Positions 1,917-17,614 of a stretch of DNA of 36,978 nucleotides are shown here, piece after piece. Location: NCBI GenBank assembly GCA_019237415.1, contig JAFAHD010000058.1:1-36978 (forward strand), in the 5' to 3' direction. The DNA comes from Vulcanimicrobiota bacterium (GTDB taxonomy: Bacteria; Vulcanimicrobiota; Vulcanimicrobiia; Eremiobacterales; Eremiobacteraceae). A program made the translations under genes and the position numbers. The notes below the pieces were generated by a model, which did no database searches, was not told where the DNA came from, and saw only the letters and a list, made by a program, of their open reading frames with translations. Positions within the stretch are counted from its first letter, which is position 1. Every line of letters begins with the position of its first letter.

Positions 1917-2621
1917 ATGTCGCACTCATCTCTCCCCTCCCACGCGGCCGAACAGGCCAAACGCAAGATCCTCGTCGTCGAAGACGACATCCAAATCGCC
2001 AAAGTCCTGCGCCTCGAGCTCGAGCATGAAGGCTTCGAAGTCGAGGTGTGCGGCGATGGCGCGAGCGCCATCGAACGGGCGCTCAAGGGCCCCGACCTCA
2101 TCATCCTCGACCTGTTGCTGCCGCGCATCGACGGCCTCGAAGTCTGTCGCCGGGTGCGCCGCCATTCGTCTGTGCCGATCATCATGCTCACCGCCAAAGA
2201 TGCCGTGCCGGATCGCATCACCGGGCTGGACACCGGCGCAAACGACTATCTCGCCAAACCGTTCTCGATCGACGAACTGCTGGCGCGCATCCGCGTGCAG
2301 CTGCGCGAGCGCGAGCCCGGCGAGCGCGTGCTCGACATCAAAGACCTCAAGCTCAACCGCGACACGCACGAAGTATGGCGCGCCGGGCGTCCGATCAGCC
2401 TGACCGCCAAGGAGTTCTCGCTGCTCGAGTTCCTCATGATGTACCCGAACAAAGTGCACACGCGCGACGAGATCTTCAACAGCGTGTGGGGCTCGGATTT
2501 CTTAGGCGAATCGAACTTGATCGACGTCTACATCCGGTATCTGCGCAACAAAGTGGACGACGCCGCCGATGAGAAGCTCATCCAGACCGTCAGAGGTGTC
2601 GGCTACGCCCTCCGCGCGTAA
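1917..2621 (+). CDS. OmpR/PhoB-family response regulator
   Basis: KILVVEDDIQIAKVLRLEL...DLIILDLLLPRIDGLEV...MLTAKDAVPDRITGLDTGANDYLAKPFSIDELLARI plus C-terminal winged helix (LIDVYIRYLRNKVDD...TVRGVGYALRA). Confidence 0.95.
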   Translation: MSHSSLPSHAAEQAKRKILVVEDDIQIAKVLRLELEHEGFEVEVCGDGASAIERALKGPDLIILDLLLPRIDGLEVCRRVRRHSSVPIIMLTAKDAVPDRITGLDTGANDYLAKPFSIDELLARIRVQLREREPGERVLDIKDLKLNRDTHEVWRAGRPISLTAKEFSLLEFLMMYPNKVHTRDEIFNSVWGSDFLGESNLIDVYIRYLRNKVDDAADEKLIQTVRGVGYALRA

Positions 2622-4071
2622 CCGCGCGACAACACCGCCGTTTTTCGAAAGCCTGCGCTGGCGACTGAGCTTCTGGTATGTCGCGGCCGTCGCAGCGCTG
2701 CTGTTCCTGTTCGCGGCGATCGTGCTGTTGGGCGCATACCGCGTGCTCTATCTCTCCGCCGCGCAGCGCATCGAGGGCGCCTCGATGGCGCTGCAATCGT
2801 ACGCGCGCGCAGGCAATCCGCTGTTCGGCTCGGCATCGATCATCGAACTGCTGTCGCAGCAAAGCCAGCTCGACACGTTCGCCGGCCCGGGCTTATACGT
2901 CGAGGCGTTCAACCCGAGCGGCGCGCGCATCGGCGGCAGCACGAACCTCGCCGATGCCGACTTGCCGACCACCGGTTACAAGCGTTGGCATATGGAGGGC
3001 ATCGCGGCGGGCGATTGGGGCAAGGCCAACACCGCGCTCGGTCCGGTGCTCGCCCACTGGCATACGATCTCGGAGAACGGCAAGCCGGTGGCGACGGTGT
3101 ACGTCGCCGAGTCGCTCGCCAACGTGGACCAGGCCCTTGGCTCGTTCGCGACGTTCTTGTTGCTGAGCTTCATCGGCGCAGTGATCTTGATCGTGCTGTC
3201 AGGCGTCTGGCTGTCGCGCACCGCGATCGGCCCGATCAATGAGATCTCGCAGGCGGTCCAAGAGATCGGCGGCACAGATCTTGCCAAGCGCTTGAACTGG
3301 ACAGGCCGGCGCGACGAGCTGGGACGGCTCGCCGCGCAATTCGACGACATGCTTGCGCGGTTGGAAGCCGCGTTTTCTCGCGAGCGGCGCTTCATCTCGG
3401 ACGCATCCCACGAGCTCAAGCCGCCGCTCACCGTGATCAACGCCAACGCGCAAATGCTGGAACGCTGGGGCGACCGCGACGAGCACGTGCGGCGCGAAGG
3501 GCTGGAAGCGATACGCGCGGAGAGCGCGCAGATGGCGCGCGTCATCAACGCGATGCTCACGCTTGCGAAGACCGATACGGGAACGGCCCTCGAAGTTGAG
3601 CCGCTCGACTTGCGCGCGGTCGTCACCGACGTCGCGAACACGCTGCGTCCGCGCGCCGCGGAGAAGGGGCTCACGCTCGACGCGCGCTGCAGCGGCGACA
3701 CGTACGTGCTGGGCGAGCCCGGTCTGCTGCGCCAGCTCGTTGTGAATCTCACCGAAAACGCGATCAAGTTCACGAGCTCGGGAGGCGTCACGATCTCGAC
3801 GAGCGCGCAGAACTCTCACGCGCGCATCGACGTCAGCGACACGGGCTCGGGCATCCCAGCGGACGCGTTGCCGCACATCTTTGAACGCTTCTACCGCGCC
3901 GACCCCGCACACTCGCGCTCGATCGAAGGAACCGGCTTGGGGCTCGCAGTGGTGCGCAGCATCGTGCGCGCGCACGGCGGCGACGTCTCGGTTAAGAGCG
4001 CCATTGGCGAGGGCACGACGATCTCGGTCACCCTGCCCGCACTCGTGCTCTCCAGCGACGGCGACGCATGA
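2569..4071 (+). CDS. HAMP-domain sensor histidine kinase
   Basis: Two TM segments, HAMP, H-box FISDASHELKPPLTVI, N-box LTENAIKF, DTGSGIPADALPHIFERFYR, GTGLGLAVV. Overlaps the RR 3' end. Confidence 0.95.
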   Translation: MRSSSRPSEVSATPSARNRATTPPFFESLRWRLSFWYVAAVAALLFLFAAIVLLGAYRVLYLSAAQRIEGASMALQSYARAGNPLFGSASIIELLSQQSQLDTFAGPGLYVEAFNPSGARIGGSTNLADADLPTTGYKRWHMEGIAAGDWGKANTALGPVLAHWHTISENGKPVATVYVAESLANVDQALGSFATFLLLSFIGAVILIVLSGVWLSRTAIGPINEISQAVQEIGGTDLAKRLNWTGRRDELGRLAAQFDDMLARLEAAFSRERRFISDASHELKPPLTVINANAQMLERWGDRDEHVRREGLEAIRAESAQMARVINAMLTLAKTDTGTALEVEPLDLRAVVTDVANTLRPRAAEKGLTLDARCSGDTYVLGEPGLLRQLVVNLTENAIKFTSSGGVTISTSAQNSHARIDVSDTGSGIPADALPHIFERFYRADPAHSRSIEGTGLGLAVVRSIVRAHGGDVSVKSAIGEGTTISVTLPALVLSSDGDA

Positions 4072-4080
4072 GCGCGCCTT

Positions 4081-4128
4081 TCACCCCCGGCTCACGGCGG
4101 ACTCACGCAGGCTTCATGCGTGACTCGC
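4081..4128 (+). promoter_or_regulatory. Candidate response-regulator operator: five TCAC-like half-sites at exact 11-bp spacing
   Basis: TCAC at 4081, 4092, 4103; TCAT at 4114; TCGC at 4125, followed by a possible -10 (TAAGGT, 4139-4144) upstream of the 4185 ORF. Confidence 0.6.
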
Positions 4129-4184
4129 CGCCGCACGGTAAGGTCAGGCCGAGAGGGGCCCGCGGCCCTTTCACCCCGACCTTT

Positions 4185-5117
4185 ATGAAGCGCTTCAATC
4201 ATCTCGCCATCGCGGTCGCCGCGCTGGCGGCACCGCTGCTCATCGTCTTGTCGGCCAAAGCCGACCTGGCGCAGCTCAACGATGGCGCGCCGGTGGTCCG
4301 GATCCAGTCGAATGGCGGCCGGATCCTCGTTCATCCTGGCGAGCCGGATGGCGTCGTGCGCATTCCAGGCAACGCGCCCGGCGTGCAGATGAATCGGTTT
4401 GATGTGCCGGCGCAGGCGTCGGTGTGCGTGCCGCGGCCGCAGGCGTTGATGCCGCGCCGTGGTGGAAGGCCAGGTCTCGCGCCACCGCCGCCGCAGCCTG
4501 CGTGCGTGCCGCACAACTTCAACCTGCGCCCCGGCCCGCATGGCGTCGCGATCAACAATCCAGGCAGCGATATAGAAGTCGGCGTTCCCAATCGCACGGA
4601 GCTGATGTACATCCAAGGTGGGACGAGCCCTGTCACGATGGAGCGCACGCGCGGTCCGTTCTTCATCACCGGTCAGAACGATGTGATTCTGCACGGCGTC
4701 GCCGGCGCGGGAACCGTTCTGACGCTCGGCAACATCGATGCTCGCAACCCCCAAGGCAATCTCACCGCCGGAACGCTCAACGGGCACATCACGCTCGTCT
4801 CCAACGCCGCGCTCGACAAGGCGACGCTGGTGGACCGCGATACCGGCGACATCGACTGGACGATCGAGGGCGTCGGCGGCGGACCATATCGCGTGCAGAG
4901 CGGCTCGGGGACCGCGCGCCTGTACGTGCGGCCGGGCGTCGGCGCCAACATCACTGCGACGAGCCTGGGCGGAACTGTGAACAACCTGCTGGATCCATCG
5001 ATCGCTGAAGTCGGCGTCTCGCGGCCGCACGCCGTGTCGATGACCGTCAATGGGGGCGGCGCGCAGATCACGGTCAACAGCGAAAGCGGCAACATCGTCA
5101 TCGCTCCCGCGCCGTAA
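4185..5117 (+). CDS. Secreted beta-rich/adhesin-like hypothetical protein (DUF4097-like)
   Basis: Signal peptide MKRFNHLAIAVAALAAPLLIVLSAKA, Gly/Asn/Thr-rich beta-repeat sequence. The ORF-track start at 4068 would place the repeat array inside the CDS; 4185 preferred. Confidence 0.7.
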   Translation: MKRFNHLAIAVAALAAPLLIVLSAKADLAQLNDGAPVVRIQSNGGRILVHPGEPDGVVRIPGNAPGVQMNRFDVPAQASVCVPRPQALMPRRGGRPGLAPPPPQPACVPHNFNLRPGPHGVAINNPGSDIEVGVPNRTELMYIQGGTSPVTMERTRGPFFITGQNDVILHGVAGAGTVLTLGNIDARNPQGNLTAGTLNGHITLVSNAALDKATLVDRDTGDIDWTIEGVGGGPYRVQSGSGTARLYVRPGVGANITATSLGGTVNNLLDPSIAEVGVSRPHAVSMTVNGGGAQITVNSESGNIVIAPAP

Positions 5118-5124
5118 CCTGGGA

Positions 5125-6462
5125 TTGCCCGCGAGCGCGGCGAACTGCGACCGCGTGCTCCGCATCGCCGGTTTTGGTTTCGCGCTCGCGCTCATCGCCT
5201 TCGTCGCATTGACCTCGCCCGGACCGACCGCCGTCGTCGCGCAAGAAGGCGCGGGGCCGTCGTTCGTGCCGCAAGTCAACACCTCGGCAGCCAGTCCGAC
5301 GCCGGTGCAGACCGCGCTCCCCAATCCCATTTCGCGACCTGACGACGCGCACGGCATCACGCAGACGACGGCGCCGTATGCGCAGCCAAGCGCGTTTTCG
5401 CCGCCGCCGGTGCCGCCGGCGCTCTGGCTCTCGAACGATGCGTCGTTCAGCGTGCCGTGCGAGATGCACGGCGACCGGGTCTTCGTCAGCGTCGTCGTGG
5501 ACGGACGGCCCGAGCAATTCTTACTCGACTCCGCTGCGCCGTTCTCACTGATCGATCCGTCGTCCGCGCCGTCGCGCGACGCGCCGGTCAAACTCCACAC
5601 GCTGCAACTCGGCGAACTGCGCTTCAATTCGGTGAACGCGGGGGTGAGCCGCGTTGTCGCGCCCTCGGAAGCGTATCTTGGAAAACCAGCCGACGGCGTG
5701 CTCGGACAGGAGCTGTTCGCACGCTATCCGGTGAAGATCGATTTCCAGGCCTGCGCGCTCACGATCTTCCGCGATGCCCAGTCCGTGCCCGCGAGTCCGG
5801 CGCCCAACGACAGGACGTTCTCGATCCGGATAGTCAACGGCCAGCCGCAGATCGGCGTCGGTTTCGCAAGCGGCGTGACGCCGCAATTGGTGCTCGACAC
5901 CGGATCGGACGCGGACGCCGACATCACGCAGACGTTCTTGAACGAGAGCCACCTCGCGTTCATCTCCGCGATCACGGAGCTGCGGCGCTGGGTACCCGGC
6001 GGCTTGCTGAATGGTGACACGGCGCGCACGACGGCGTTTGTGCTCGGAGCCATGTCGTTCGACCGGCCGCTGATCGGCATCATCGACAGTACGAGCCGCA
6101 CGCCGGCCGGCTATCTCGGCAACGGGTTCTTGCGCAACTTCACCGTGCTGCTCAACGAGCCTGCGCTGCAGCTGACGCTGACGCCGGTCGCCGGGTTGCG
6201 GCGCTCGTCGTACGACCGCAGCGGCGCGTGGTTGATCTGGCGCAACGGTGCTGTGACGGTCAAGAGCGTGGTGCCGGAATCGCCGGCGAGCAAACTGTTG
6301 TCGCCCGGCGATCGCATCATCGCGCTCAACGGTCAGGTCGCGTTTGATCTGGACGGAGCGCGTACGATCCTCGCCGGACCGGCCGGATCGACCGTCGCGC
6401 TGACGTACGAGCATGGCGGGCGGCAGCGCGAGGGCTCGCTCGTGCTGAAATCGCTCTTATGA
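5125..6462 (+). CDS. Secreted retropepsin-like aspartic protease with C-terminal PDZ domain
   Basis: FLLDSAAPFSLID and LVLDTGSDADAD motifs; PDZ-like VKSVVPESPASKLLSPGDRIIALNGQ. Probable TTG (5125) or GTG (5155) start. Confidence 0.75.
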   Translation: MPASAANCDRVLRIAGFGFALALIAFVALTSPGPTAVVAQEGAGPSFVPQVNTSAASPTPVQTALPNPISRPDDAHGITQTTAPYAQPSAFSPPPVPPALWLSNDASFSVPCEMHGDRVFVSVVVDGRPEQFLLDSAAPFSLIDPSSAPSRDAPVKLHTLQLGELRFNSVNAGVSRVVAPSEAYLGKPADGVLGQELFARYPVKIDFQACALTIFRDAQSVPASPAPNDRTFSIRIVNGQPQIGVGFASGVTPQLVLDTGSDADADITQTFLNESHLAFISAITELRRWVPGGLLNGDTARTTAFVLGAMSFDRPLIGIIDSTSRTPAGYLGNGFLRNFTVLLNEPALQLTLTPVAGLRRSSYDRSGAWLIWRNGAVTVKSVVPESPASKLLSPGDRIIALNGQVAFDLDGARTILAGPAGSTVALTYEHGGRQREGSLVLKSLL

Positions 6463-7211
6463 GCATCCGCGTCCGCAATCTCTCCGCGATCGCGATCGAT
6501 CCCATCGAGTTTCCAAGCGCAGGCGGCACGGTGCGCGGCCTCTTCTACCATACCGGACGTACGGCGTCGTGCGCCGTGATCTGCCACGGCTACTCGTCGA
6601 GCAAACAGAACGTCGACCCGCTGGCCTATCATCTGGCGTCCGAAGGTTTCACGGCGCTCGCCTTCGATTTTCTGGGCCACAAGTTAGGAGCGAGTTCGCG
6701 CCCGCTTGTGCGCGCAGAGGATCTTGTGGTCAACGCGCTCGATGCGATCGCCTTCGCTCGCGGGCACGCGCTTGCCGGCCGGATCGTCGTCGGCGGCCAC
6801 AGCATGGGCGCCGCCACCGCGATCGGAGCAGCGCTGCAAGACGCCGGCGTGCAGGGCGTCTTTGCGCTATGCACGTCGCGCCACCGCGGCGCGCAGCTCG
6901 CAAGCGACGGCTTGGTGCGCGGCTTGATCAATCGCCGGGTCTATGTCGATGGCGCAGGCCCGGAAGAGATCACGGCGGCAATGGACGCGCACACGGCGCG
7001 CGCGGCTGAGGTCGCACCGCGCCCGATCCTCTTCGTCGCTGGTTCAAAGGACGCGCTCGTCGCGCCCTCGGCGGTCAAGCAGCTTTTCGACGAAGCGCGC
7101 GAGCCAAAGACCTATGAGCTGATCGAGGCCAACCACACCGATGCCGCGGAGCGATCCCGCTTCGTCGTGACGAGATGGCTGCGGGCCGCGGGGTTCGAAT
7201 ATGCCCTCTAG
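6459..7211 (+). CDS. Alpha/beta hydrolase
   Basis: CHGYSSSKQN oxyanion region, VGGHSMGAATAIG nucleophile elbow, catalytic His in ANHTDAAE. Confidence 0.85.
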   Translation: MSIRVRNLSAIAIDPIEFPSAGGTVRGLFYHTGRTASCAVICHGYSSSKQNVDPLAYHLASEGFTALAFDFLGHKLGASSRPLVRAEDLVVNALDAIAFARGHALAGRIVVGGHSMGAATAIGAALQDAGVQGVFALCTSRHRGAQLASDGLVRGLINRRVYVDGAGPEEITAAMDAHTARAAEVAPRPILFVAGSKDALVAPSAVKQLFDEAREPKTYELIEANHTDAAERSRFVVTRWLRAAGFEYAL

Positions 7212-15316: not shown

Positions 15317-17614
15317 ATGCATGTCATCATGCGAAACTCAGCCGGGCGGCTCTGGTGCGGCCTGCTCTTGGCGCTTGGCGCGTTGGTCTTTGCGGTCGCA
15401 CCCGCGGCAGCCGATGACGCCGCTCCGAACGTCGCGCGTATCAGCGCGATGCAGGGCGCCGTCACGATTCAGCGAGGCGACTCCGGCGAGAACGTCGACG
15501 CATCGGTCAATGCGCCGATCAGCGTCGGCGACTATCTAGCCACCGCGGGCGAGGCTCGCGCGGAAGTCCAAATCGACGATGCGGACTTCGTCCGCGTCAC
15601 CGACAATTCGCAGCTGCGCTTCACGCAGCTCGATCCAAGCGACAACGAACTCCAACTGGCGGCCGGGACCATCGAAGTCGCCGTGCTGCGCTATTCCGAC
15701 TCGCGCCCGCAAGTCGAGACCCCGTCGATCAAGGTCATCCCCAATGAGGAAGGCTCGTATCGCGTGGTCGTCGATCCGGACGGCAACACCTGGGTGACGG
15801 TGCGCCATGGCAGCGTCAGCTTGGTGTCGGGAGAAGGCACCACGACGATCAATGAAAGGACCAGCGTCGAGATCTCGGGCGACTCGTCGGCGCCGGACAT
15901 CCACGAGGTGGGGTACATCGCGTTGGATGACTTCGACGCGTGGAACGCGCAGCGCGATCAGTTCGCGATGGGCGCGTTCTCGAGTCCCGCCGCAGCGACC
16001 GATATCACTGGCCTCGCGGACCTCGGCTCGTACGGCAACTGGCAAGACAACTCGCAATACGGTCAGGTTTGGGTCCCCAACAATCAGACGGCCGACTGGG
16101 CACCGTATCAAGACGGCCGCTGGGCGTGGGAACCGTATTACGGGTGGACATGGGTCGGCTATGAGCCGTGGGGCTGGGCGCCATATCACTACGGTCGCTG
16201 GTTCTACACCGGCAACGTGTGGGCGTGGTCCCCTGGACCGGTCTACGTACGCCCCGTCTACCAGCCCGCATTGGTTGCGTTCCTCGGCTTCAATATCGGA
16301 AACGTCAACATCGGGTTGAGCTTCGGCGGGGGCGGCTTCGGATACAACAACATCGGCTGGGTGCCGCTCGCGCCTGGCGAGCCGTACTATCCGTGGTGGG
16401 GACGCGGCTACCGCAACGTCTCGGTCACCAACGTCACCAACATCACGAATATCACCAACATCACGAACATCACCAACGTCTATCGCAACGCGCGCGTGCG
16501 CAACGGCGTCGCGGTGATCTCGCAGCAGAACTTCACGGACGGTTCCCGCTATCAATACCACTCGGTGCGTGGCAATGATCTGCGCAGCGTCGCCCTCGTC
16601 AAGAGCGCCTTGCCGGTCGTGCCGACCAACCAGAACCTGCGCTTCAACACCGGCACGGTCGCGAAGGCGCCGATGATCTCGTCGCACTTCGACAAACTGC
16701 CGGCAGTGCGTTCGCCCGAGCCATTCGAGCAAGCGCGCGGCTCCGTTCAGACGATCGCGCACAGCGCTGGTAATGCGACGCGATTCGGCACACAAAGCAC
16801 TCCCGCGCATCCGATCAACGACACGAACGTCGTGCACAGCGTGACGAACGGCGGTTCCACCAACGCATCGAGCGTCTGGAGCCGGTTCGGCACGCAAAGC
16901 ACGCCTGCGCATCCGATCAATGACACGACCGTCGTGCACACGCCAACTGCTCCCTCGGTGCAGCACGGCTTGACGAACGGCGGCGCAAGCGTGACGAACG
17001 GCGGTCCCACCAACGGAACGAGCGTCTGGAGCCGGTTCGGCACGCGGAGCACGCCTGCGCATCCGATCAATGACACGACGGTGGTGCACGCGCCGGTCGC
17101 TCCAACGGTGCAACACGGTTTGCCGAATGGCGGCGCGAGCGGAGCGAATGCGGGTTCCACCAACGCATCGAGCGTCTGGGGCCGGTTCGGCACGCAAAGC
17201 GTAGCGCCGCGTCCCATCAACGGCGCTACTGCGGTGCACACGCCGCTGAGTCCCAGCGTCGTGCAGCGCGGGGTCACGACGACCAACTCCGCTCCCACGA
17301 ACGCATGGGGCAGGTTCGGCACGCAAAGCATCGCGCCACGCACGCTGAACAACGCTCCCAGCACGAACACATACAACCGCGTGACGCCGGCATACACGTC
17401 GCACACGCCCGCGTACAACCCCGCGCCGGCACCGCACTATGGCCCTCCAGCTACACAGTACGTTCCGGCATACAACCACAACAACGGCTCGGGCGGCTCG
17501 CGCTACAACGCGGTGAACGCGAACGTGAGCCACGCGGTCGCGCCGTCCGGCGCGTCCGGCGGGACCAGCAAACAGCCGGCCGGCGGCAACCACAACCACA
17601 AGGGACAGAACTAG
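15317..17614 (+). CDS. FecR-domain protein with DUF6600 region and C-terminal repeats
   Basis: FecR-like N-terminus (GAVTIQRGDSGENVDASVNAPISVGDYLATAGEARAEVQIDD), Trp/Tyr-rich YGQVWVPNNQTADWAPYQDGRWAWEPYYGWTWVGYEPWGWAPYHYGRW, then TN(V/I) and RFGTQS repeats. Confidence 0.85.
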   Translation: MHVIMRNSAGRLWCGLLLALGALVFAVAPAAADDAAPNVARISAMQGAVTIQRGDSGENVDASVNAPISVGDYLATAGEARAEVQIDDADFVRVTDNSQLRFTQLDPSDNELQLAAGTIEVAVLRYSDSRPQVETPSIKVIPNEEGSYRVVVDPDGNTWVTVRHGSVSLVSGEGTTTINERTSVEISGDSSAPDIHEVGYIALDDFDAWNAQRDQFAMGAFSSPAAATDITGLADLGSYGNWQDNSQYGQVWVPNNQTADWAPYQDGRWAWEPYYGWTWVGYEPWGWAPYHYGRWFYTGNVWAWSPGPVYVRPVYQPALVAFLGFNIGNVNIGLSFGGGGFGYNNIGWVPLAPGEPYYPWWGRGYRNVSVTNVTNITNITNITNITNVYRNARVRNGVAVISQQNFTDGSRYQYHSVRGNDLRSVALVKSALPVVPTNQNLRFNTGTVAKAPMISSHFDKLPAVRSPEPFEQARGSVQTIAHSAGNATRFGTQSTPAHPINDTNVVHSVTNGGSTNASSVWSRFGTQSTPAHPINDTTVVHTPTAPSVQHGLTNGGASVTNGGPTNGTSVWSRFGTRSTPAHPINDTTVVHAPVAPTVQHGLPNGGASGANAGSTNASSVWGRFGTQSVAPRPINGATAVHTPLSPSVVQRGVTTTNSAPTNAWGRFGTQSIAPRTLNNAPSTNTYNRVTPAYTSHTPAYNPAPAPHYGPPATQYVPAYNHNNGSGGSRYNAVNANVSHAVAPSGASGGTSKQPAGGNHNHKGQN
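16427..16480 (+). repeat. Six tandem 9-bp units encoding (TNV/TNI)6
   Basis: ACCAACGTC ACCAACATC ACGAATATC ACCAACATC ACGAACATC ACCAACGTC. Confidence 0.95.
16781..17350 (+). repeat. Five imperfect coding repeats beginning RFGT(Q/R)S
   Basis: RFGTQST/RFGTQST/RFGTRST/RFGTQSV/RFGTQSI at 16781, 16883, 17033, 17183, 17312 (spacing 102, 150, 150, 129 nt). Confidence 0.9.

Follow-up and report, generated by a model that had tools for sequence, protein, structure and literature searches.

Among the closest described relatives of the system considered here are regulators that act on tandem direct repeats. The M. tuberculosis PhoP crystal holds a tandem dimer on TCACAGC repeats, arranged as TCACAGC-N4-TCACAGC with an obligatory 4-bp spacer, and DNA with three or four repeats is bound more tightly (PMC4832192). 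Direct repeat units of 11 nt likewise make up the PHO box of E. coli PhoB (CTGTCAT) and the sites of Streptomyces PhoP (GTTCACC) (PMC4415409). Salmonella PhoP promoters of architecture III (rstA, ompX) carry a directly oriented box about 21-23 nt 5' of the -10 element, and the rstA promoter requires the alpha C-terminal domain (PMC3335776). Toastrack proteins, for their part, recur next to two-component systems tied to envelope stress, for example in lia/vraSR-like loci, and have been placed inside the cell (PMC11237479). No paper in the library searched deals with a regulon of a two-component system from Candidatus Eremiobacterota; the element described below is of a known kind, and the regulon is apparently a new one, in an unstudied phylum.

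The window, a 36,978-nucleotide stretch, comes from an incomplete assembly (1.76 Mb, 72% complete). Its plus strand carries genes for an OmpR/PhoB-family response regulator (1917-2621; Pfam Response_reg, PF00072, and Trans_reg_C, PF00486; recognition helix NLIDVYIRYLRNK) and a sensor histidine kinase (2569-4071, stop codon 4069-4071; Pfam HAMP, HisKA and HATPase_c). Beyond a 113-nt gap lies the candidate target (4185-5117), a family-conserved gene whose product combines an apparent signal peptide with a Toastrack (DUF4097-like) beta-helix, followed on the same strand by two genes that Pfam matches and synteny make probable members of the same operon: an aspartyl protease with a PDZ domain (5155-6462) and an alpha/beta hydrolase (6459-7211), which overlaps the protease stop through an ATGA. 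This synteny, with SIMPL-like and LigT genes upstream, then regulator, kinase, beta-protein, protease and hydrolase, is largely kept in the family as far as contigs reach, and each of the other 13 family genomes has an orthologue of the 4185 protein. Pfam gives no match for the window protein itself; two orthologues score above the gathering score for PF13349, and the structural model (mean pLDDT 75) matches 4QRK in a fold search (E 2e-7, with low TM-scores). The Pfam match thus comes through the orthologues and the 4QRK-like fold through the model, and on both counts the product is predicted to be a Toastrack-fold protein. Elsewhere in the window, two tandem repeats have periods that are multiples of three: a 9-bp unit, TCACCAACA, at 16425-16477 (5.9 copies), which may encode a short peptide repeat, and a 150-bp unit at 16823-17245 (about 2.5 copies, 85% match).

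The array itself sits at the start of the gap behind the kinase. The first-pass annotation had listed five half-sites, and all are where it put them: TCAC at 4081, 4092 and 4103, TCAT at 4114 and TCGC at 4125 (4125-4128). The first four are conserved in the family alignment but TCGC is not, and it was left out of the operator, which we delimit as four half-sites at 11-bp pitch on the plus strand (4079-4122). The annotation also had the array overlap the kinase stop codon; this holds in related families, whereas in the window the array starts about 8 nt past it. An 11-nt copy of CCTTTCACCCC is indeed present at 4077 and 4167, but relatives have nothing that corresponds to the one at 4167. The -10 element TAAGGT (4139-4144, plus strand) lies 25 bp from the start of the last half-site, which would put the transcription start at about 4151 and give the window mRNA a leader of about 34 nt. 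No -35 consensus is found at the expected place of this promoter (ATGCGT at 4116-4121, 17-bp spacer). Four TCAY units at 11-bp pitch occur once in the real window and in 0/200 dinucleotide-Markov simulations of it, and the exact four-unit pattern has a single match in the 1.76-Mb genome. As a bare periodicity the array is nevertheless unremarkable in the window, where other 4-mers, GC-rich words, equal its score at several periods, so that the case for it rests on comparison with relatives.

Fourteen genomes of Candidatus Eremiobacterota formed the family set, being relatives and not independent samples. All 14 carry, between the kinase and the downstream gene, the consensus CTCAY-N7-TCAY-N7-TYAC-N7-TCATGCG. 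Thirteen of these intervals align without gaps over the array, and in each the four half-sites keep the 11-bp pitch exactly; among the aligned genomes units 1, 2 and 4 are invariant at T, C and A, as is TCATG in unit 4, and TCATGCG (4114 in the window) is the best-conserved unit of all. In G010 the contig breaks past the kinase, leaving the array at the contig end with one unit substituted. The proposed -10 is equally well kept: TAnnnT follows the start of unit 4 at 25 bp, or at 26 bp in three genomes (G003, G008 and G010), in 14/14. Unlike the array and its spacing from the -10, the flanks cannot be aligned across the family, and because the interval from kinase stop to gene varies from 114 to 657 nt, the fixed array-to--10 distance is under specific constraint. 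Conservation of the repeats in orthologous loci, which the first-pass annotation had named as a check, extends to the array and its promoter spacing and stops at their flanks: the array is real and conserved.

The kinase has matches at E <= 1e-60 in 93/101 genomes of the class, mostly at 34-45% identity outside the family. A matrix trained on the family arrays alone was scored against shuffles at the kinase 3' end of sister-family loci, where 39/53 exceeded the 95% shuffle level and 24/53 the 99% level, compared with 0/333 at the 99% level among segments of kinase coding sequence. A regular expression for a two-unit site plus -10 placed a match at the kinase 3' end in 45/59 sister loci, with one elsewhere in 218 kb and none antisense; it was composed after viewing the family and the first sister loci, which makes the matrix score the cleaner test. 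By this expression, a recognisable site is absent from the kinase 3' end in about a quarter of the 59 loci. In sister families the site mostly runs across the kinase stop (TCATGA), but it stands at other offsets in several loci; in two f3 genomes, where the order is Toastrack-regulator-kinase, a TCATG ahead of the Toastrack gene precedes TAGGCT by 25/26 bp. These other offsets and the f3 gene order argue that the site tracks the target promoter and not the kinase reading frame, and the consistency across genera and gene orders is too great for chance. In 34 of the 45 matching loci (among L168-L233), a start codon, mostly GTG, follows exactly 6 nt past the -10 and precedes a signal-peptide-like sequence. 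This fixed distance checks the -10 independently and implies that mRNA from these loci should be leaderless. We are inclined to think, with some reserve, that the class drives the regulator's main target from a rigid, near-minimal cassette, in which a two-unit operator lies across the last codons and stop of the kinase, the -10 follows at 25/26 bp and the start codon 6 nt further on, yielding a leaderless mRNA; the window's family would have enlarged the operator to four units, shifted it out of coding sequence and gained autoregulation.

What protein reads these sites? The closest solved relative of the regulator by sequence is M. tuberculosis PhoP, most of whose base-contacting residues its recognition helix keeps: Asn212, Tyr217 and Tyr220 are retained, as is Arg222, with Glu215 replaced by Asp and Ser216 by Val, and the recognition-helix core NLIDVYIRYLR is identical in family genomes and in nearly all sister genomes. 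The regulator reaches neither the NCBIfam PhoB equivalog cut-off (TIGR02154; 223.7 vs 296.2 bits) nor that of MtrA (NF040689; 223.7 vs 300 bits). The locus combines several features of an OmpR/PhoB operator: 11-bp tandem repeats 5' of a -10, a regulator with receiver and winged-helix domains, and orthologous conservation. The regulator's own promoter also carries a two-half-site operator on the plus strand (1762-1777; TCAC 1763, TAAT 1774), with a -10 element TATCCT (1800-1805) 26 bp after TAAT. In 11/11 family genomes a YTCAY-N6-YTTAATG-like site, followed at 25/26 bp by a -10, precedes the regulator gene, and the motif is absent from this promoter outside the family (0/58). A pattern that covers both site forms matches the window only at the two promoters and nowhere on the minus strand, and over twelve family loci 21/21 matches fall at these two promoters. 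To judge by its sequence, the two-unit site thus suggests autoregulation in the window's family.

We hold it highly probable, from these comparisons, that the 1917-2621 regulator has its operator in the array at 4079-4122 and would activate the Toastrack-protease-hydrolase operon and, in the family, its own gene as well. The proposal of the first-pass annotation, that the adjacent regulator controls the operon through the array, gains support from a site conserved in relatives and not coding from 4068. The assignment to this regulator rests on synteny and on autoregulation. Against the reading stand the paralogous OmpR-family regulators present in these genomes, the quarter or so of sister loci without a recognisable site at the kinase 3' end, and the absence of the motif from the regulator promoter outside the family. 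The comparisons show that site, spacing, gene order and recognition helix are conserved and that the motif is specific; from them we infer the identity of the binding protein, activation rather than repression, dependence on phosphorylation and a role at the envelope. In the mechanism that we propose, protomers of the phosphorylated regulator would line up head to tail on the direct repeats, each taking one 11-bp turn; the binding would be cooperative and in tandem, by four protomers in the window's family and by two in the rest of the class. The protomer furthest downstream would occupy the -35 position and recruit RNA polymerase to the -10 (4139-4144), thereby turning on the operon, while the two-unit site 5' of the regulator gene would allow autoregulation in the family. 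Because Toastrack proteins occur near envelope-stress two-component systems and a protease shares the operon, analogy suggests that the circuit is an envelope response.

Scanning the family genomes with R1, a profile built from the array sequence alone, recovered the 13 arrays at E <= 5e-10 and few other sites per genome. The next-best sites mostly precede genes of a single lipoprotein family, whose members are about 360 aa long (MRTR...AGCSG) and have been assigned no Pfam domain. Such sites occur in ten family genomes (L034, L037, L038, L142-L144, L146-L148 and L154), including a pattern match in G009, at 25 bp from the -10 where counted except in G011, a looser match; none was found in G000 (incomplete), G006, G007 or G008. 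The lipoprotein gene, by this count over ten family genomes, is the most consistent further candidate target of the motif, and its similar sites would place it under the control of the same regulator. Two same-genus genomes also have three TCAC units 5' of a gene for a PHB-depolymerase-like esterase (L039, site 3346; L153, site 1998), where no clear -10 was seen at the usual distance.

Alternatively, the array might be the operator of a different OmpR-family regulator, for example the true PhoB or PhoP of these bacteria, of which the neighbouring pair is merely a co-regulated target. Many OmpR/PhoB-family regulators share TCAY repeats with an 11-bp pitch, as in PHO boxes (PMC4415409), and related arrays of different geometry do exist: a second conserved four-unit array (CTCAY..TCTCAY..TCAAG..TCACG) stands 5' of a DUF1800 gene in five genomes (L032-L036, that is G000:C21, G007:C14, G002:C11, G003:C96 and G009:C21). 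Its third unit is TCAAG and its last unit lies 15 bp before the -10, a geometry like that of the E. coli PHO box; these differences set it apart from the array at the kinase, and the DUF1800 arrays are possibly sites of another OmpR-family regulator rather than members of the same regulon. That another protein reads the array itself seems unlikely to us, given that the site accompanies the regulator-kinase locus across the whole class, even in the f3 gene order, and that the R1 profile is so sparing of other sites.

A second alternative keeps the adjacent regulator as the binding protein but has it repress the operon, or has the array merely tune a basal promoter. Regulators of the OmpR family can act as repressors, and polymerase could be occluded by a site that covers the -35 position. 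Lacking a -35 consensus, though, the promoter would presumably need help, and the phased spacing resembles that of the activated architecture III promoters of Salmonella PhoP (PMC3335776); it is because of this operator-to--10 geometry that we favour activation, and repression strikes us as improbable. Far less credible is an RNA hairpin (CGGCGG..TCACGCA/TGCGTGA..CCGCCG at 4095-4133) of which the TCAC repeats would be a by-product: the 119-nt region folds somewhat better than its shuffles (z -2.0), but the pairing is specific to the window and not conserved in relatives (41% of cells paired vs 39% in shuffles, with slid versions equal), and no T-run follows, so that a hairpin or terminator was rejected. 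Separately, a second inverted repeat in the leader region of the window (4140-4183) could fold. Finally, the named refuter of the first-pass annotation, that the array belongs to the reading frame of a longer downstream protein, can be virtually dismissed: the frame is open from 4068, with an ATG overlapping the kinase stop, but orthologues align from the ATG at 4185 (signal peptide), in G009 and G003 no frame stays open through the array and that of the gene opens only downstream of it, 11 bp is not a codon period, and the interval to the gene varies in length at a fixed array-to--10 distance.

An operator of the adjacent regulator, our preferred reading, yields a testable operator code, with an exported Toastrack protein as the core candidate target conserved over a class and the lipoprotein as a further one, and offers a comparative series of operators of two versus four units and of leaderless versus leadered promoters. 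Set against known systems, it shares with M. tuberculosis PhoP (PDB 5ED4, 9JI3) TCAC half-sites at 11-bp pitch, and PhoP also binds three- and four-repeat tandems; it differs in the 3' part of the half-site, which is not AGC (the last unit is TCATGCG), and belongs to another phylum with other targets. From E. coli PhoB and Streptomyces PhoP it is set apart by its score below the NCBIfam PhoB cut-off and by the absence of phosphate genes among the targets seen, while 11-nt units, a TCAY core, several units per operator and the -35 position are common to all. The box of Salmonella PhoP is (T/G)GTTTA, compared with TCAY in the window, but in architecture III the box stands similarly far from the -10 and is just as tightly phased. 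Unlike lia/vraSR-like loci, finally, this one has an OmpR-type regulator, no detected PspC or LiaF domain and a Toastrack protein that apparently carries a signal peptide; as in those loci, a two-component pair is linked with a Toastrack-fold protein.
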